This document shows, in pieces, positions 4,145 through 40,323 of a stretch of 64,000 bases of DNA (position 1 is the stretch's first letter; each line of letters begins with the position of its first letter). Location of the stretch: assembly GCA_900318345.1 (NCBI GenBank), contig ONKD01000003.1, positions 1 to 64,000 on the forward strand, given 5' to 3'. The position numbers and the translations under genes were made by a program. This DNA comes from an uncultured Prevotellaceae bacterium. Lineage in GTDB: Bacteria > Bacteroidota > Bacteroidia > Bacteroidales > Muribaculaceae. Under the pieces are notes generated by a model. It had not been told where the DNA came from and did not search any database. It saw only the letters and a program-made list of their open reading frames with translations.

Positions 4145-5608
4145 ATGAAAAGATTTACAATTTTAGCCCTTTTACTGGCAAGCGTCAGCATGACCTCATT
4201 GGCAGGTGGCCTGCTCCATAACACTAACCAGCACATCGCTTTCATGCGCATGATGGCCCGTGGTGCTAGCCACGAGATCGATGGTGTTTACACTAACCCC
4301 GCCGGCCTGGCCTTTATGGACCATGAGGGCTGGACCCTGTCACTGAACATCCAGAGTGCTTCGCAGAAGCGCGACGCATTGACCACGTTCGCATTATTCC
4401 CCGAGGCTGATCACACGCGCCTGTACAAAGGCAAGGCCGAGGCTCCCGTGATCCCGTCACTCTACGGTGCCTACAAGCGCGATCGCTGGACGTTCTCTGG
4501 CTTCTTCGGGTTCACCGGTGGCGGTGGCAAGTGCAACTTTGACAGCGGTCTGCCCGTGTTTGACGCGAGCATCATGGCCGGCATCTATGGCCAGACGGCA
4601 CAATTGGCCCAGGCCCTGGCCTCCAACCCTGCCACGGCTCCCATCATGGCCGATCCCCGCATCGCTGGCATGTTGCCCTTGACGGCCGACAAGTATGACA
4701 TCAATTCGGCCATGAAGGGCCGCCAGTACATCTACGGCTTGCAGCTGGGTGCCACCTACAAGGCCCTGGATTGGCTCAGTGTTTACGCCGGTGGCCGCAT
4801 GAACTACTTTGACGGCAACTACAGCGGCTTTGTCAAGGTGATGCCTAAGCCCGAGTTGGCTGCAACCGTTCAGCAGATCGGCATCGCTTATCCCGCCCTT
4901 GCTCCCACCCTGAGCGGTCTGGTGAACCAGAACGGCGAGATGGCCAACATCGAGCTTGACTGCTCGCAGACCGGTTGGGGCATTACGCCCATCATTGGTG
5001 TGGACCTGGTGTGGAAAGGCTTTACGCTGGCTGCCAAGTATGAGTTCAAGACCAACCTCAACATCGAGAACGACACCAAGACGGCAACTGCCGAGCCCGC
5101 CGCCTTTGAGGCTGCTCTCAACGACTACAAGCATGGTGTGAACACGCCCAACGACTTGCCAGCTGTGTTCTATACTGCCCTGGGTTACGAGTTCATCCCC
5201 AACAAGTTGCGCGCCACCGTCGAGTATCACTACTATGACGACAAGCACGCCGAGATGGCCCATGACAAGCAGAAACACTTGCGCCACGGCACCCACGAGG
5301 TGCTCGCCGGTGTCGAGTGGGACATCAACAAGATGTTCACCGTGAGCGCTGGTGCCCAGAACACCGACTACGGCCTGAGCGATGATTACCAGACCCACAC
5401 CTCATTCTCCTGTGACAGCTACTCGATTGGCTTTGGTGGCGCCGTCAACGTGACCGATAAAATTAAGGTCAACGTGGGCTACTTCTGGACCACCTACAAG
5501 GACTATGACCGCAGCGAGACCGACTACTTCGGCACCACGCTGCCCGGCAAGGACACCTACAGCCGCACCAACAAGGTCTTCGGTGCCGGTATCGATTTCA
5601 AGTTCTAA
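4145..5608 (+). CDS. Outer membrane protein of the OmpP1/FadL family
   Basis: The start at 4145 gives a clean signal peptide (MKRFTILALLLASVSMTSLAGG), while an in-frame ATG at 4118 would put nine extra residues before it. The mature 465-residue region begins with a segment holding NPAGLAFM, the NPA motif typical of the FadL/TodX family. It continues as alternating aromatic and polar strands and ends in FGAGIDFKF with a terminal Phe, as expected for an outer membrane barrel. The family carries hydrophobic compounds such as fatty acids across the outer membrane. Which ligand is used here cannot be told. The gene has its own promoter region and a strong terminator (5639-5676), so it is monocistronic. 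Confidence 0.88.
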   Translation: MKRFTILALLLASVSMTSLAGGLLHNTNQHIAFMRMMARGASHEIDGVYTNPAGLAFMDHEGWTLSLNIQSASQKRDALTTFALFPEADHTRLYKGKAEAPVIPSLYGAYKRDRWTFSGFFGFTGGGGKCNFDSGLPVFDASIMAGIYGQTAQLAQALASNPATAPIMADPRIAGMLPLTADKYDINSAMKGRQYIYGLQLGATYKALDWLSVYAGGRMNYFDGNYSGFVKVMPKPELAATVQQIGIAYPALAPTLSGLVNQNGEMANIELDCSQTGWGITPIIGVDLVWKGFTLAAKYEFKTNLNIENDTKTATAEPAAFEAALNDYKHGVNTPNDLPAVFYTALGYEFIPNKLRATVEYHYYDDKHAEMAHDKQKHLRHGTHEVLAGVEWDINKMFTVSAGAQNTDYGLSDDYQTHTSFSCDSYSIGFGGAVNVTDKIKVNVGYFWTTYKDYDRSETDYFGTTLPGKDTYSRTNKVFGAGIDFKF

Positions 5609-18040: not shown

Positions 18041-20047
18041 TTAGTTGCCGCTGAGGAGTCGGTCGATGAGGGCGGTTACATCGGCGATGTTCACGTTGCC
18101 GTCGCCATTCACGTCGGAACCAGCGGGAGGTGTGGTGCCTGCCAGCAGGATGTCAATCAGGGCGGTCACATCGGCGATGTTCACGTTGCCGTCGCCGTTC
18201 ACGTCACCAGGTTGAATAGTAACCTCGGTGAGTTTCACATTATCCACTGCGAAGTAGTCGCCCGTGGGATTCACGCTGCCGTCCTTCTGATAGGACCAGG
18301 TCAGCGTGTGGCTTCCAGCGGGAATGGCAGCAGAGTAGGACTCCCAATCGTTCTGACGGGCACCATACTTGAATTGCTCCACGCCGTCGATCGAGAAGAT
18401 GCAAACGTCGTAGCTTGTGCCTTCGCCCCAGGCCTTGAAGTCAAAAGTCACAGTGTGGGGCTTGCTCAGGCTGACGGTGGCCGACAACGTCGAAGTGGAA
18501 CTGGCCACACCAGCGTTGCTCGACTGGGCATATACACGGGTAGCGTCGCCCTTTACCGTCCATGGGTAGTCACCGGTGGAGGTGAAGTTGATGTTGCCGC
18601 CGCTGACGTTGAGCGCATAGTTCAGCTCGCCGCCGTTGGGAACAATCAGATAGAAGTTCTTCCAGTAGGTCGCTGCCTTGTAGCTGTTCACTGCGCTGGT
18701 TGAGGGCACCTTGAGCGTGACGGTGCTGTAGTGGCTGTTGTCGAACGTTGTACTCTGGATGGTGGCTGGCGTGCTGCGCTGGCACGTCACCGTTGTCAAT
18801 GCCGTGCAGCCGTTAAAGGCATACGAGCCGATGCTCGTCACGCCTGAGCCTATGGTCACATTTGTCAGTCCTGTACACTTGTAGAAAGCATAGTCCTCAA
18901 TGGTTTGAATACTGGAGCCCATGGTCACCGATTTCAGATCGCCCTGGTCGCGCAACGACGGGGCTTCGCCCGTGCTGTTCTTGTTCATTTGTCTATCCTC
19001 ATTGAAGGCGCCATAACCGATGGCCGTCACGTTATAAGTTTTGCTAGTGCCGCTATAGTAAGCTGTTGTGGGGATGGTGACACTGCCAGTGTAAGAGTAG
19101 TCATTGGTAGATGCGATGCCTGGAACTCTGCCTCCATATTTGTTCGTTACCTTGACGGTGTTGGTGCCTGAAATCAGGTAATAGATGCCACCCGTGTAGA
19201 AGTCGTATCTATGATTCGTTACTAAGTGAGAATAGGTGTAGAAATTGCTCCAATAGGTCGCGTTCTTATAGAGATTTTGCGCGTATGGCCCTTCCACATA
19301 CACCGTGTGCCTTATGTAGGGGTTATAGTGCCAGTCCTCGGCAGCAGGGTCTGACTTGCCGGAGAAGGTGTGCTTCTGGATTGTGGGCGGATTGATGGAC
19401 TTCATGTGGAACGTCACGGGTCTTATGCAGTCCTCTCCATATTCTTGATAATCCGACCAACGATAATCAAAGCTGAACGCATAATCACCAATCGAGGTCA
19501 CCGAGCTGCCGACGGTCATATTTGTAATATTGTAGCATGAAGAGAAGGCATCTTCACCGATGCTGGTCACGCCATCACCAATAACCACTGTTTGTAAGCT
19601 ATAGGATCTAGAGAAAGCACCCTCACCAATGGTTATTACCGAATTGGGAATTGTGACTGAAGTCAGTCTGTTGGGCTCACTGTCCGATTCGAACGCGGAG
19701 AAAGCATAATCGCCAATGGAAGTTACAGTATTGGGAATTGTGATTGACGTTAGTCTTCCCGCTTGACAAAAGGCATAACGACCGATAGCCGTTACCGTAT
19801 AATACGACCCGTTATAATACACGGTACTGGGAATGGTCACAGCGCCTTCGTAGGCGTAGGTACCATGATAGTTGTAATACCCGTCTTCCTTGTAGGTCAC
19901 CTCGACGGTTTTGTTGGTGGAACTCGTGATGTTGAAGTACATTAACACGCCGTTGCAAACCGCTGAGAAGTCGTAGGCGGTGGCGCTTAGGGTACTCGAC
20001 AGGCACGTCACGAGGACGAGCAGTTTTAGGAATAAAAATTTTTTCAT
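18041..20047 (-). CDS. Secreted BspA-like leucine-rich-repeat protein with C-terminal dockerin
   Basis: A 668-residue secreted protein. The order is a signal peptide (about 1-24), LRR_5-type repeats with the pattern LTSITIPNTVTSIGDYAF, a second block of the same repeats, a beta-sandwich domain (about 480-610) that resembles carbohydrate-binding or MAM-like modules and ends in FAVDNVKL, and two dockerin repeats (GDVNGDGNVNIADVTALID and a near copy) at the very end. BspA-like proteins bind host or bacterial surfaces. Dockerins bind cohesins, and calcium-ligand Asp/Asn residues are intact, but no cohesin gene is in the window. The gene has a Bacteroidetes promoter at 20385-20415 and an unusually long, structured leader of about 330 nt. 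Confidence 0.9.
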   Translation of the reverse strand: MKKFLFLKLLVLVTCLSSTLSATAYDFSAVCNGVLMYFNITSSTNKTVEVTYKEDGYYNYHGTYAYEGAVTIPSTVYYNGSYYTVTAIGRYAFCQAGRLTSITIPNTVTSIGDYAFSAFESDSEPNRLTSVTIPNSVITIGEGAFSRSYSLQTVVIGDGVTSIGEDAFSSCYNITNMTVGSSVTSIGDYAFSFDYRWSDYQEYGEDCIRPVTFHMKSINPPTIQKHTFSGKSDPAAEDWHYNPYIRHTVYVEGPYAQNLYKNATYWSNFYTYSHLVTNHRYDFYTGGIYYLISGTNTVKVTNKYGGRVPGIASTNDYSYTGSVTIPTTAYYSGTSKTYNVTAIGYGAFNEDRQMNKNSTGEAPSLRDQGDLKSVTMGSSIQTIEDYAFYKCTGLTNVTIGSGVTSIGSYAFNGCTALTTVTCQRSTPATIQSTTFDNSHYSTVTLKVPSTSAVNSYKAATYWKNFYLIVPNGGELNYALNVSGGNINFTSTGDYPWTVKGDATRVYAQSSNAGVASSTSTLSATVSLSKPHTVTFDFKAWGEGTSYDVCIFSIDGVEQFKYGARQNDWESYSAAIPAGSHTLTWSYQKDGSVNPTGDYFAVDNVKLTEVTIQPGDVNGDGNVNIADVTALIDILLAGTTPPAGSDVNGDGNVNIADVTALIDRLLSGN

Positions 20048-20120
20048 AATGCAAAGTTGATGCCTCCTGAGTCCCCCGAATTCGGCATTTAGTATTAGTA
20101 TAATGAAAGCGCAGGGACTT
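20048..20120 (-). promoter_or_regulatory. Conserved leader tail with helix and distant AGGAGG
   Basis: AGTCCC (20114-20119) can pair with GGGACT (20070-20075), enclosing a 38-nt loop with CCGAATTCGG. An AGGAGG (20063-20068) follows at once, 15 nt before the ATG. The same arrangement, with most bases conserved, precedes LRR-dockerin gene 2 (40162-40233). A perfect Shine-Dalgarno is unusual in this phylum, and 15 nt is a long spacing. Confidence 0.7.
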
Positions 20121-20134
20121 TGCTTGTCTGTTCA

Positions 20135-20307
20135 CTCATCTAGAGGCATCGCCAAACGCCCTTCCACTGCGAACAGTCATCCCCCACGCTCGGCTTTATG
20201 GTCGAGCCCTCTCCCGTGGTTAGGGGGATGGCGTACCACGCAACCTGCGACGGAGCGTCGTGACTGTCTTTGACCAGTGGATAATTTTGGCGAAATTTCT
20301 AGATGAG
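20135..20307 (-). ncRNA. Putative 173-nt structured leader RNA
   Basis: Four nested complementary pairs enclose the element: CTCATCTAGA (20135-20144 / 20298-20307), TCGCCAAA (20149-20156 / 20286-20293), TCCACTG (20163-20169 / 20275-20281) and ACAGTC (20173-20178 / 20262-20267). Inside lie CATCCCCC/GGGGGATG (20178-20185 / 20223-20230) capped by GCTCG/CGAGC (20188-20192 / 20203-20207), and two local hairpins GCGT-ACC-ACGC (20231-20241) and CGACG-GAG-CGTCG (20248-20260). It lies between the promoter and the start codon of LRR-dockerin gene 1. I do not recognise it as a known riboswitch or RNA family. Confidence 0.6.
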
Positions 20308-20384
20308 GTCAAAAACAAAACGCTTTCGTCTTGTTTACAAGTATGTCTTGCTCGGCAATGGGACATGCCCACCACTTTGCACCG

Positions 20385-20415
20385 CAAAGATAGCATAAAA
20401 AAGCAATATTCCAAA
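20385..20415 (-). promoter_or_regulatory. Promoter of LRR-dockerin gene 1
   Basis: Minus strand: -33 TTTG (20412-20415), 19-nt spacer ending in TGCTTTTTTATGC, -7 TATCTTTG (20385-20392). Thirteen bases of the spacer are identical to those in the promoter of LRR-dockerin gene 2. Confidence 0.7.
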
Positions 20416-20431
20416 AAAATGAGGTGATTAT

Positions 20432-20640
20432 TATGCTCGCTGCGCTCGCAGTTTAGAGTTTAGAAGTTAAAGAGTCATCCGCGCCCTTAACCGGCCACAA
20501 ATTTGACCTATTAGCCCTATAAGACCTATAAGACCAATTTGACCAATTTGGCATCCGCCAACAGGCCCCACGCTAAGGCGCTAAGGCGAGGCGCGAAGGT
20601 TTTATTTTTTCATCCGCGTAACGGGTCTGGAAGACAAGAA
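20432..20640 (-). repeat. Mosaic repeat modules in reverse orientation
   Basis: Read on the minus strand it carries a TCTTGTCTTCC piece, GCGGATG, CCTTCGCGCCTCG, CCTTAGCGTGGGGCC, an AATTTGTGGCCGGTTAAGG..GCGGATG piece (20476-20503) and a TTTAGAGTTTAG run next to a CTGCG/CGCAG mini-hairpin. These are the same words as in the plus-oriented clusters. No gene is present from 20048 to 21517. Confidence 0.7.
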
Positions 20641-36567: not shown

Positions 36568-39500
36568 TCAGAAGCTTCTAAGCTGCTTCTTGCTTGACTC
36601 GGTTGGCACGATTGACTTAGACAAATCTTTCAATTTATTCAAGTCATCTTGGGTCAACTCAATGCCATTGGCGTTACCATTCAAGAGCAGGTCGATGAGG
36701 TCGGTCACGTCGTCAATCGATACCCTCCCGTCGGTGTTCACATCGGCTCCAGCATTTCCACTGCCAGTGCCGTTCAGCAAAATATCAATCAAGTCGGTCA
36801 CATCGTCAATCGAGACCCTGCCGTCACCATTCACATCACCGCGCACAGTTGTCGCATAGTAGTCAACCCAACTGCTGCCGTTATACTGCTTGGGCTTCCA
36901 GTACTTGTTGCTGGCGGTAGTGATCTGGGCAGCAGTCATCGAGTTGTTCTCACCCGTGTTGTAAATGACGCGGAAGGTGCCTGGGTTGCTGGCAGTGCGA
37001 GTGGGCAGGCTGTTCACGAGGGTCGTCATGCCATTACCACTGATCTTGTTCTTGTAGCAGTAGAGCGTAGTCAATGCGCTGCATCCCGACACGTTCAATG
37101 AGGTCAACTGATTGTTGTAGCAAAATAACTCTTCCAGATTTGATCTACCAGTCAAATTAAGCGAAGTGAGCTTATTGTTATGGCAATCAATATGTCGTAT
37201 TGATGATTGATTGGCTAGAATGAGTGATGTTAATTGATTATCTGTACAACCTAAAGACCATAGATCCTTACAGTTTTGAAGATTGAGTGATGTGAGTTTG
37301 TTACCACTACATTGTAAAAATTGAAGGTCAGTATTGCTCGACAAGTTAAGTGATGTTAGTTGATTATCACTGCAGCTTAATGTGTTTAATGAGAGGTTTG
37401 ATACATTAAGTGTTGCTAATTTGTTCTCACAACAATCGAGATCAAAAAGTTCGGTGCAACCAGTAAGATTGAGTGTAGTCAATTCATTATTACTGCAATA
37501 GAGTAAAACAAGGTTAGTGCAGCCTGTGGCATTTAGAGTGGTCAAAGCATTTCTAGTGCAATCAAGGCTACTCAACACAGTGCAGCTTGAAACATCGAGT
37601 GTTGTCAATGCATTATTATAGCAATACAATGTACCCAGTTGGGAGCACCTCTCAACATTGAGTGTTGTCAGAGCATTGAAGGTGCAGTCTAGTGATGTTA
37701 ACTGCGTGCAGTCGTGAAGATTGAGGGTGGTTAACCTGCTGTTGCCCATGATGGTTGCATCGTTCAATTGCGGGTTGTTGTAGCACAAGAGTTCAGTCAA
37801 CTTGTTCTTGTCGGTTACCGTAAGCGAGGTTAGTTTAGTACCACTGCAGTACAGCTTTTCCAGGTTGCTCATGTTGCTTACGTTGAGGCTGGCAATGGAT
37901 GTGTTGTAACAATAGAACGTCTTTAACGCGGTCAAATTAGCTTGGTTTGTGATGTTGGTCAGGTTGGGGTTTGGCGCACAGTCCAGGTAGGTCAATGCGG
38001 TGGTGCCTGACAGATCAAGCGTGGTGAAGGTGTTGTTGTTTCCATAGCACCGCAAATCTTGCAGCGCTGGGCAATCCGTCACGTTTAACGTCCCCAGCTT
38101 ATTAGAGTAGCAGTAGAGCGTTGTCAGTGCTGGGCAGTTGTTGCTGGCGAGGTACTTCAGGGCCGTGTTGTTGGTGACTGTGAGCGTCGTCATTTGAGGG
38201 TTGCTGTAGCAATAGAGTTCAGTCAACTTGCTCTTGTTGGTTATCGTGAGCGAGGTCAACTTAGTATTATTGCAGTACAGCTTTTCCAGGTTGCTCATGT
38301 TGCTTACGTTGAGACTGGCAATGGATGTGTCAAAACAATAGAACGTCTTTAACGCGGTCAAATCGGCTTGGTTGGTGATGCTGGTCAGGTTGGGGCTAGG
38401 TGCACAGTCCAGGTAGGTCAATGCGGTGGTACCTGACAGATTAAGCGTGGTGAAGGTGTTGTTGCTTCCATAGCACCGCAAATCTTGCAGTGCTGGGCAA
38501 TTCGTCACGTTTAATGTCCCCAGCTTATTAGAGTAGCAGCTGAGCGTCGTCAGTGACGTGCAGTTGTTGCACAACAAGGTCGTTAAAGCCGAGTTGCCGT
38601 AAACTTTGATTGTTGTCACCTGTGGGTTGTCGTAAGCATAGATAGTAGTCAGCTCGCTCTTGTTGGTCACCGTGAGCGAGGTCAGTTGGTTGGCATGGCA
38701 GAACAGACTTTTCAGGTTGGGCATGCTATTGACGGCACTTAGGCTGGTCAGTGCACAATAGTGGCAATATAAATATTGAAGAGCCGTGCAGTTTGCTAGA
38801 CCCGTAATTGCGCCTAGGTTAGTATTATACGAGCAGTTTAGGCTCTTCAACGCTGTGCAGCCAGTGACGTTGAACGAAGTGAGATTGTTATCGTTGCATA
38901 CCAAATCCGTCAAGTTAGTCTTGTAGTTGACATCTAGACTGCTGAAATTACAGTTTTCACAGATCAGTCTAGTGATGGCGCTGCAATCGGCCAGGCCAGT
39001 GATTTGGGTTAGGTTTGCATTATTTTGGCACCGCAGTTCTTGCAATCCAGTACAGCCTGTCACGTTGAGCGATGTCAGAGCGTTTCCATAGCAGTCCAAA
39101 TTTGTCAAATTAGTATTGCCCAGGACACGTATATCCTTCAGCTGGGTCTTGTTTGTAACCAAGAGTGAGGTCAGTTGGTTGTTGCGTGCCCATAGCGTGC
39201 CCAGGTTAGTCATATTGTTGACACCACTCAGGGTGGTGATGGCGCAGTCCTCGCAGTCGAGATAGGTAATGGCGGTGCAATCAGCCAAGCCAGTGATCCT
39301 GGATAGGTTTGGATTCTCGTAACACCGCAAATCGGTCAATGCAGTGCAGTTCGTAACACCTAGTCCAGTCAGGGCATTTCTATAGCATTTAAGTGTTGTC
39401 AATCTAGTGTTGCCTTCGACGATCAAGGAGGACAACTTGCTTTTGTTGGTGATTGTGAGCGAGGTCAATCTGTTGTTATTGGCATACACTGTCTCGATGT

Positions 39501-40161
39501 TGCTCAGGCTGTTCAAGGCACTCAAGTCTGAGATCTTGCAGTCACAGCAGTCGAGATAGGTCAGGGCGGAGCAATCAGCCAGGCCGGTGATGCTGGAAAG
39601 GTAGGGAGTTTCGTAGCATTTGATTGTCTTTAAAGCTGTACAACCAGTGACATTAAGTGAAGAATTAATAGGACCGTTTGCGCCAGTCCGATAGCAGTTA
39701 AGTGTGTGTAGTGATTTACAGTTCGATACATCGATTTGACAAAGTCGCTTAAGATCGTCAATATTGAGCGTGGTATATGAATTATTAGCGCAATATAGAT
39801 AAACAAGATTTGAACAATTACTTATATCAAGTGAAGTCATTCCATTCCCTGAACAGTCCAAATCTTCTAATTGAGTATTAGAGTTGAGATTTAGCCAGCT
39901 GAGATTATTGTCAGAACAATCCAGGGATGTCAAGGCTGTAAAGTATTTGATTCCTTGTAACGATGATATGTATTGCCGGGACACGTCAAGCCTTGTCCTA
40001 GAGTTGAGCTGGGCGGTTGTGATGTAGCCACTTGGATACAATGAGAGCAGGAAACTGCGGAAGTTCGCATCAGGGAAGTTGGTGGAATTGATGGTGACAT
40101 CCGCCTGTGCTGCAAGGCCTGACAGCAGCACAATCAATAGAGGTAATAATAATTTTTTCAT
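36568..40161 (-). CDS. Large secreted leucine-rich-repeat protein with dockerin repeats
   Basis: A 1,197-residue secreted protein: signal peptide (about 1-20), an N-terminal cap with DANFRSFLLS, then some forty short LRRs of the form LTSLNVTGCTAL..LYCYNN (about 50-1060) with regular Cys positions, and two dockerin repeats (GDVNGDGRVSIDDVTDLID and a close copy) near 1090-1160. Unlike the other two dockerin proteins of the window it has about 34 extra residues after the dockerin, ending KKQLRSF. Inside the LRR array about 142 residues are duplicated nearly exactly. LRRs of this type mediate binding to other cells or proteins. Promoter and leader tail match those of LRR-dockerin gene 1. Confidence 0.88.
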   Translation of the reverse strand: MKKLLLPLLIVLLSGLAAQADVTINSTNFPDANFRSFLLSLYPSGYITTAQLNSRTRLDVSRQYISSLQGIKYFTALTSLDCSDNNLSWLNLNSNTQLEDLDCSGNGMTSLDISNCSNLVYLYCANNSYTTLNIDDLKRLCQIDVSNCKSLHTLNCYRTGANGPINSSLNVTGCTALKTIKCYETPYLSSITGLADCSALTYLDCCDCKISDLSALNSLSNIETVYANNNRLTSLTITNKSKLSSLIVEGNTRLTTLKCYRNALTGLGVTNCTALTDLRCYENPNLSRITGLADCTAITYLDCEDCAITTLSGVNNMTNLGTLWARNNQLTSLLVTNKTQLKDIRVLGNTNLTNLDCYGNALTSLNVTGCTGLQELRCQNNANLTQITGLADCSAITRLICENCNFSSLDVNYKTNLTDLVCNDNNLTSFNVTGCTALKSLNCSYNTNLGAITGLANCTALQYLYCHYCALTSLSAVNSMPNLKSLFCHANQLTSLTVTNKSELTTIYAYDNPQVTTIKVYGNSALTTLLCNNCTSLTTLSCYSNKLGTLNVTNCPALQDLRCYGSNNTFTTLNLSGTTALTYLDCAPSPNLTSITNQADLTALKTFYCFDTSIASLNVSNMSNLEKLYCNNTKLTSLTITNKSKLTELYCYSNPQMTTLTVTNNTALKYLASNNCPALTTLYCYSNKLGTLNVTDCPALQDLRCYGNNNTFTTLDLSGTTALTYLDCAPNPNLTNITNQANLTALKTFYCYNTSIASLNVSNMSNLEKLYCSGTKLTSLTVTDKNKLTELLCYNNPQLNDATIMGNSRLTTLNLHDCTQLTSLDCTFNALTTLNVERCSQLGTLYCYNNALTTLDVSSCTVLSSLDCTRNALTTLNATGCTNLVLLYCSNNELTTLNLTGCTELFDLDCCENKLATLNVSNLSLNTLSCSDNQLTSLNLSSNTDLQFLQCSGNKLTSLNLQNCKDLWSLGCTDNQLTSLILANQSSIRHIDCHNNKLTSLNLTGRSNLEELFCYNNQLTSLNVSGCSALTTLYCYKNKISGNGMTTLVNSLPTRTASNPGTFRVIYNTGENNSMTAAQITTASNKYWKPKQYNGSSWVDYYATTVRGDVNGDGRVSIDDVTDLIDILLNGTGSGNAGADVNTDGRVSIDDVTDLIDLLLNGNANGIELTQDDLNKLKDLSKSIVPTESSKKQLRSF

Positions 40162-40233
40162 AAGCTCAAAGTGTTGCCTCCTTAGTCCCTCGAATTTGGC
40201 ATTTTAAGTATCAGTAGAAAAGCGCAGGGACTT
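40162..40233 (-). promoter_or_regulatory. Conserved leader tail with helix and distant AGGAGG
   Basis: AGTCCC (40227-40232) can pair with GGGACT (40184-40189); AGGAGG (40177-40182) follows, 15 nt before the ATG. The words AAGTCCCTGCGCTTT, AATGCC and CTTTG are at the same places as in the leader of LRR-dockerin gene 1. Confidence 0.7.
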
Positions 40234-40323
40234 AGTTTGCCAATGCAATGACAACGCGCCTTCGTTTAGTTATTAGTAATTTCATCGAGATGCTGGGTGG
40301 TTTTTCCATCACAACGCCCGCCA

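Follow-up and report, generated by a model that had tools for sequence, protein, structure and literature searches.

A candidate transcription attenuator with a predicted interlocked twin-hairpin fold in the leaders of diverse Bacteroidota genes

Riboswitches that use a terminator as their expression platform include TPP, SAM-I and others, and the trp leader is the classical attenuator, in which segments of the transcript pair in alternative ways. The leader RNA considered here resembles the former in its position in a 5' leader, its conserved folded core and its predicted mutually exclusive stems, one of them GC-rich with a U-tract, whereas its arm belongs to no Rfam family, the first genes that follow it have no common pathway, its ligand is hypothetical, and crossing loop-loop helices run between two of its hairpins. 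With trp-type attenuators it shares a chain of segments (F5, s3, s4 and G3, described below) whose neighbours would pair in exclusive sets; unlike them, its conserved part is a large RNA core. Closest in phylogenetic terms are the Bacteroidetes candidate RNAs, for example Bacteroidales-1 (RF01693) and Bacteroides-1 (RF01694), given in an earlier survey (Weinberg 2010; PMC2864571). As described there, these too are structured RNAs from that phylum, put forward on comparative grounds, but RF01693 and RF01694 are matched neither by the leader studied here (E up to 10) nor by 24 homologous loci (E up to 1), a comparison that covers the candidates with Rfam numbers; Bacteroides-2 and the GUCCY-hairpin are listed there without one. 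The structure and position that we propose rest on sequence comparison, from which we read the family as new, riboswitch-like candidate attenuators before very diverse genes; that our copy belongs to a conserved leader-RNA family, likely a transcription attenuator with two alternative folds, we hold with a probability of about 0.65.

The copy lies in a window of 64,000 nucleotides, the whole stretch of DNA analysed (contig ONKD01000003.1 of an uncultured Prevotellaceae bacterium), to which all coordinates without a contig or locus name refer. The original prediction placed a 173-nt element of nested hairpins (20135..20307, minus strand) between a promoter (20385-20415) and a start codon (20047), and the sequence does contain an ATG at 20047 and, upstream, TTTG and TATCTTTG boxes, which we take to be promoter-like by their consensus. 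The main features of the locus are as follows.

20060..20381, minus strand: whole conserved leader RNA, from own-genome and relatives' copies; 5' end presumed from the promoter
20385..20415, minus strand: promoter-like box, TTTG (20415-20412) plus TATCTTTG (20392-20385), from the sequence
18041..20047, minus strand: downstream gene, ATG at 20047, encoding a 668-aa LRR_5 and Dockerin_1 protein (Pfam)
40167..40239, minus strand: 3' end of an arm-less leader before a second LRR-dockerin gene (36568-40161; Pfam), 82% identity, E 2.3e-12
20307-20298 with 20144-20135, minus strand: nested helix A, 10 bp, minimum-energy fold
20293-20286 with 20156-20149, minus strand: nested helix B, 8 bp, minimum-energy fold
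20281-20275 with 20169-20163, minus strand: nested helix C, 7 bp, minimum-energy fold
20268-20261 with 20179-20172, minus strand: nested helix D, 8 bp, minimum-energy fold

Set against shuffled controls, as had been proposed, the 173-nt element folds at -78.9 kcal/mol compared with -53.3 +/- 4.2 for 200 shuffles (z -6.06; 0/200 as good), and a 335-nt fold of the leader also stands apart (z -5.09; 0/100 shuffles as good). Nested pairs of 10, 8, 7 and 6 bp had been described, and all four are present on the minus strand, save that D has 8 bp and not 6; the 8-bp GC-rich pair CAUCCCCC/GGGGGAUG (20230-20223 with 20185-20178) is there as well. The proposed ends at 20135 and 20307 have to be abandoned, with conserved pairing partners extending beyond both, at 20327-20308 and 20134-20060, and homologous copies indicate that the element is one domain, here called the arm, of a larger leader RNA spanning approximately 20381-20060 on the minus strand. 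The predicted 5' end of this leader, UGCAAAGU (20374-20381), is fully complementary to ACUUUGCA (20050-20057), which adjoins the start codon, and the minimum-energy fold of the leader contains this pairing. Upstream of the promoter, 20500-20560 holds near-tandem short repeats, CAAATTGGT and CTTATAGG.

That the element matches no described RNA family, as first stated, agrees with a scan of the window against Rfam 15, in which no family lay over the element at gathering score and none overlapped the arm at E up to 10; the only contact with the leader was a chance-level match to ROSE_3 touching its start-codon end (20042-20094; 13.9 bits against a cut-off of 43, E 5.7). In the 24 homologous loci, searched at E up to 1, no match fell over the RNA. 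Matches elsewhere on loci (L036:1986-2212; L053:1244-1278) were to Acido-Lenti-1, twice, once above and once just below the cut-off, and to DUF805b. Literature searches, with supplementary files and preprints outside their reach, returned no description of the leader RNA, a text search for the motif GTTTGGCGATGCC returned no paper, and no such description was found in passages of PMC8040213, PMC7366714 and PMC2864571; in the main text of PMC11109978 and PMC8632094, Bacteroides, Prevotella and "Bacteroid" do not occur.

Six versions of the leader occur in the 3.17-Mb assembly. Three carry the full arm (the window copy, C79:49194-49546 and C38:175458-175799), the same three that a covariance model of the arm finds, and three are arm-less (C19, window 40167-40239 and C73), each with the 3' part retained and, in C19, the 5' part as well. 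Between the window and C79 the outer stem has changed on both sides, from CUCAUCUAGA/UCUAGAUGAG to CUGAUUCAGA/UCUGAAUCAG. Dockerin-domain genes follow five of the six leaders, the sixth gene being cut by a contig end; a dockerin-specific regulon was nevertheless rejected, since at least 149 Dockerin_1 matches (150 candidates scored) stand against six leaders and relatives' copies precede unrelated genes. Beside these dockerins the assembly, 90.6% complete, has a single cohesin match (PF00963), barely above cut-off; recognised partners are almost lacking in this dockerin-rich genome of the Bacteroidota. The existence of arm-less leaders implies that the arm is dispensable for some genes; a degenerate copy, L032, looks like a decaying arm.

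Beyond this genome, a DNA search matched 42 of 150 genomes, and the arm covariance model R1 (built from 21 sequences including the window's, threshold E <= 0.001) matched 86 of 393 genomes of the order in 54 of 207 genera, the search of Bacteroidales genomes that had been suggested, as well as 65 of 101 genomes of the genus, with up to eight copies each, and 8 in a sample of 395 genomes from the phylum, with five of these 8 lying beyond the order; the window's genome is included in every one of these counts. A weak own-genome R1 match (C45:88006-88117, E 0.0235) lies inside an open reading frame and was excluded. A strict sequence pattern found at least 118 stretches in named genomes, and among the 80 titled matches listed are Bacteroides fragilis Q1F2, B. 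timonensis, Coprobacter secundus, Muribaculaceae and Prevotellaceae. Two copies (L099, L103) sit in metagenome-assembled genomes titled Lachnoclostridium and Paenibacillus, probably mislabelled, and Bacteroides caecigallinarum An496 has a tandem pair (L116:4179-4329 and 4692-4847). The 404-nt leader had no blastn match among plasmids or phages, and viral contigs held three stretches with the strict pattern; as far as these searches see, the RNA is not mainly phage-borne. A distribution that is multi-copy and patchy among close relatives (65/101 genomes), an arm missing as a block from paralogous leaders and many matches near contig ends would suit a DNA-level element, a recombination site or mobile repeat whose pairing is a DNA palindrome. 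We regard this as highly improbable in view of the frequent G.U pairs, the crossing helices, the constant orientation to promoter and start codon, the strand-specific U-tract and the lack of matches among plasmids or phages.

An RNA-level reading draws its main support from comparison of homologues. Of the instances kept, 159 in number after skipping those too near a locus end, 133 remained once similar ones were removed; loci fetched later (L202 on) lie outside this set and outside the sets of 125, 129 and 123 sequences used below. An alignment-free swap test matched each 5' segment against its native 3' segment as well as those taken from other sequences, and scored the mean rank of the native partner, 0.5 meaning no preference. 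Alignment A4, in turn, holds 59 diverse sequences (60 chosen, L153 left out) and a modelled structure of 51 pairs; 86.0% of its cells are paired, against 41.8-46.5% with partners slid, it contains 354 double-change cells against 142.5 +/- 9.6 in shuffles (0/500), and 34 of the 51 modelled pairs change on both sides. The helices and segments of the window copy, with their support in the family, are these.

20307-20298 with 20144-20135, minus strand: helix A, outer helix of the arm; 93.4% of cells paired, 5/5 pairs double-changed, swap rank 0.973
20254..20325, minus strand: s1 (20325-20317) and s2 (20258-20254), AGCGU/ACGCU closing hairpin I; 97.5-98.3% of cells
20269..20313, minus strand: helix X, UUUGACC (20313-20307) with GGUCAAA (20275-20269); 82.4% of cells, 6/7 double-changed
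20283..20297, minus strand: HP1, AAUUU-CGCCA-AAAUU region, loop kissing HP2; weak, 49.2% of cells, swap rank 0.586
20145..20160, minus strand: HP2, GGC-GUUUGGCGAU-GCC, loop UUGGCG kissing CGCCAA of HP1; 98.9% of cells
20281-20275 with 20169-20163, minus strand: helix C; swap rank 0.954, 53-80% of cells in a poorly aligned stretch
20174..20266, minus strand: helix D, CAGUCA (20266-20261) with UGACUG (20179-20174); swap rank 0.717
20258-20253 with 20191-20186, minus strand: E, local partner of s3, ACGCUC with GAGCGU; nearly invariant
20230-20223 with 20185-20178, minus strand: F, local partner of s3, CAUCCCCC with GGGGGAUG; 81.4% of cells, 5/7 double-changed
20108..20190, minus strand: s3 (20190-20182) with s4 (20116-20108), AGCGUGGGG/CCCUGCGCU, 9 bp, tandem G.U
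20128..20176, minus strand: helix Y, CUGUUC (20176-20171) with GAACAG (20133-20128); 92.2% of cells, 5/5 double-changed, swap rank 0.683
20100..20108, minus strand: U-rich tract after s4, UUUCAUUAU, 6 U of 9, broken (sequence)
20070..20119, minus strand: helix G, AGUCCC (20119-20114) with GGGACU (20075-20070); swap rank 0.750, window copy read by eye
20060..20088, minus strand: helix H, AUGCC (20088-20084) with GGCAU (20064-20060), around G3; swap rank 0.637 (123 sequences)
20313..20336, minus strand: hairpin AAACAAGACG-AAAG-CGUUUUGUUU, which would hold s1 (minimum-energy fold)

A first run of the swap test gave A 0.973, C 0.954, G 0.744, F 0.699, X only 0.644, s1:s4 0.581 and E 0.536, the last two gaining little, and a second gave G 0.750, the local partner of s3 0.726, D 0.717, Y 0.683, s3:s4 0.618 and HP1 0.586; ranks are lowered where strands are conserved and hence fit others' partners too. 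Helix D is paired in 91.2% of cells for four pairs and 69.2% for a fifth, the last pair of HP2 varies (C-G 36, U-A 19), and s1:s2 reads AGCAUU/AAUGCU in 7 of 125 sequences. The kissing pair between HP1 and HP2 is present in 99.4% of cells but nearly invariant in A4; in distant homologues, read by eye, it is compensated, as CGGGAA/UUCCCG in L204, CGGCAA/UUGCCG in L205, CGCAAA/UUUGCG in L207 and CGACCAA/UUGGUCG in L209. Homologues keep the pairing by compensatory change and keep the position as well, with TAnnTTTG no more than 110 nt upstream of a conserved TCGCC in 119 of 129 homologues and a start codon downstream; all three observations that could have undone the original prediction (pairing or position lost, a folding energy like that of shuffled sequence, a match to a known element) came out the other way.

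Taken together, the helices suggest two interlocked hairpins. Hairpin I would be s1-X5-(A5-HP1-C5)-X3-s2 and hairpin II s3-Y5-(C3-HP2-A3)-Y3-s4, their loops tied by helices A and C and by the CGCCAA/UUGGCG kissing pair; two four-way junctions would result, the first joining X, A, C and Y and the second joining A, HP1, C and HP2, provided that, as we infer, all core helices form at once. The nested stem proposed earlier corresponds in topology to A-B-C-D, with B as the kissing pair. Nested pairs exist, then, but the purely nested picture is incomplete, as several helices cross and some compete: a nested-only fold was rejected on the grounds that X, Y, s1:s2, s3:s4 and G cross or compete with the nested stem. 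A fold with s1:s4 as sole closing stem was likewise set aside, this pairing being broken (A.C) in 7 of 125 sequences while s1:s2 stays paired. In the window copy X and A share one base, as do C and X, the 8-bp helix B overlaps the HP1 stem, and D overlaps Y and F; the hairpin AAACAAGACG-AAAG-CGUUUUGUUU is seen in the window's branch, with identical sequence in copies L002 and L003.

Four strands of the leader are alternately complementary, s1 AAGCGUUUU, s2 AAACGCU, s3 GGCGUGGGG and s4 GUCCCACGCUUU; all four were recognised in 125 of the 133 sequences, and s3 and s4 in 129. Two partners are available to s3 (GCGUGGG), one of them F5, which is local and lies upstream, the other s4 (CCCACGC). The s3:s4 pairing, terminator-like base of hairpin II, is present in 97.6% of cells with 4 of 7 pairs double-changed, and at each of its seven positions in 123-125 of 125 sequences, a share inflated by the fuzzy matching to a consensus through which s1-s4 were found; L047 has the double change GUGUGGG/CCCACAC. 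In the 129 sequences the tract behind s4 averages 6.76 T of 9, and windows taken further downstream average 2.48; s3:s4 followed by this U-rich tract has the form of an intrinsic terminator. The family shows a GC-rich stem directly before a U-tract, the window a stem with a broken tract, and the conserved structure lies, as that of a riboswitch does, in the 5' leader between promoter and start codon. Averaging 83 nt, the s3-s4 segment has a loop long for a terminator; in isolation it folds as s3:s4 plus Y and HP2 in both the window copy and L168, modestly better than shuffled in the former (-32.3 kcal/mol, z -2.02, 5/200 shuffles) and at -29.5 kcal/mol in the latter (z -3.54, 1/200). For the GGGG of s3, F5 is a rival partner (81.4% of cells, 5/7 pairs double-changed), and in L158, L174 and L181, for example, a long local hairpin holds s3 instead. 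The competing set as a whole (E, F, s1:s4) has 30 double-change cells against 13.0 in shuffles (0/500), without an excess of double-change pairs (6 against 5.2, reached by 186/500 shuffles), and s1:s4 has no double change. Estimated duplex energies, loops excluded, are close (means over 129 sequences of -15.2 kcal/mol for the local partner and -13.9 for s3:s4), and this near-equality together with the adjacent U-rich tract gives the leader the look of an attenuator. Distant homologues read by eye appear to keep the scheme with other letters: L202 has s3/s4 as GCGCGG/CCGCGC, and L205, of the other-class family, has s3 GGGUGUUCC, s4 GGAACACCC plus UUUUU and a local hairpin ACACUCCGU/ACGGGGUGU, the fold of its whole segment not showing s3:s4.

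Past the U-tract and immediately ahead of the start codon lies G3, a pairing partner for the 5' part of s4. The best G stem reaches at least 6 bp in 106 of 123 sequences, the 123 being those with at least 5 bp, and stems differ widely, as AAAGUUCCC/GGGGACUUU, CAAACCCA/UGGGUUUG and ACAAGUCUCU/GGAGACUUGU; some picks of the script, including the window's, are plainly other stems, the script having no control of its own and the swap test (0.750) serving as one. The chain F5 - s3 - s4 - G3 would in this way offer two exclusive pairing sets. In a stop state, s3:s4 and the U-rich tract would halt RNA polymerase before the gene; in a read-through state, F5 would hold s3, s4 would pair with G3 and the polymerase would continue, whereupon s4:G3 and hairpin H would together make a pseudoknot, immediately upstream of the start codon, that may also tune translation. 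On this view the RNA would be transcribed and would stop at s3:s4, its core presumably sensing a signal, be it a small molecule, an ion or a protein; as a guess at the direction, a stabilised core would align Y and favour the stop. The window copy is a divergent member whose s3:s4 stem contains a tandem G.U and whose U-tract, UUUCAUUAU, is broken, and for these reasons the G/H pseudoknot may be where control has shifted in its branch. Arm-less leaders elsewhere (L004, L006, L007, L027, L029, L030, L033, L034 and L035) keep s1, s4, G3 and H.

These same elements raise the alternative of translational control instead of termination, in which a protein or small molecule would stabilise an s1:s4/G/H pseudoknot before the start codon and block or help the ribosome. 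G and H do lie just before the start codon and covary between sequences, arm-less leaders retain only this part of the RNA and the window's U-tract is broken, yet such control would not need the U-rich tract after s4 or the conserved s3:s4, and s1:s4 is without double change; we think it unlikely as the principal mode.

Genes downstream were surveyed from 122 pattern instances, 99 of which have an ORF start 60-170 nt after HP2. The distance from HP2 to the start codon has a median of 95 nt and is 80-115 nt in 82 of the 99, the choice of ORF being limited to 60-170 nt. This narrow spacing and the G/H pairing beyond the U-tract, which points to action in cis, stand against an independent small RNA that would act in trans, carry both a promoter and a terminator (s3:s4 and the U-tract) and leave the gene to be reached by read-through. 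A promoter-like box and a terminator-like end on one transcript, before mutually unrelated genes, would fit such an RNA, to which we give a lower chance still than to translational control. What the comparison reveals is a folded, probably cis-acting RNA outside known families, its role in cis being argued from pairing that adjoins the start codon. A candidate cis-regulatory RNA, as first proposed, is supported, whereas "for a surface adhesin" proves too narrow, LRR_5 proteins making up 14 of 98 first genes. Across the 98 first proteins scanned (L141, with ambiguous letters, left out), 51 Pfam families occur, among them Poly_export and PEGA with three each. A hydrophobic N-terminus marks 64 of the 99 first proteins. 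Among those of at least 300 aa the share is 84% of 44, while other ORFs on the loci, a rough background that contains spurious frames, reach 43% of 291; the downstream genes likely encode mostly exported proteins. About 14 of the 99 first proteins are small and helix-turn-helix-like (the motif gives 15, of which L121 is false, and reading by eye 14). The gene after them often encodes a lipoprotein or has an export signal, and Pfam HTH_3 matches just 2 of 98. The small HTH-like first genes, often beginning MHIG, are at L082, L091, L092, L100, L104, L107, L109, L110, L118, L129, L143, L178, L190 and L201.

We return, then, to a candidate attenuator or riboswitch, in which the predicted interlocked twin-hairpin fold and the spread through Bacteroidota before unrelated genes appear to be what is new. 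A bolder proposal, to which we give somewhat less than even odds, is that of a new and exceptionally knotted Bacteroidota riboswitch class, two hairpins interlocked via two four-way junctions and a kissing loop, in which one common signal, perhaps a second messenger, would act through a shared terminator to coordinate a scattered envelope regulon of adhesins, lipoproteins, polysaccharide exporters and small regulators. What has emerged is an apparently widespread regulatory RNA, absent from Rfam 15, in common animal-gut bacteria, whose predicted fold, two hairpins tied by loop-loop helices, would reward study by RNA structural methods. Should a single signal act through this RNA, many unrelated genes, most of them likely encoding exported proteins, would be joined in one regulon, and its identification would uncover a new level of regulation in the Bacteroidota.
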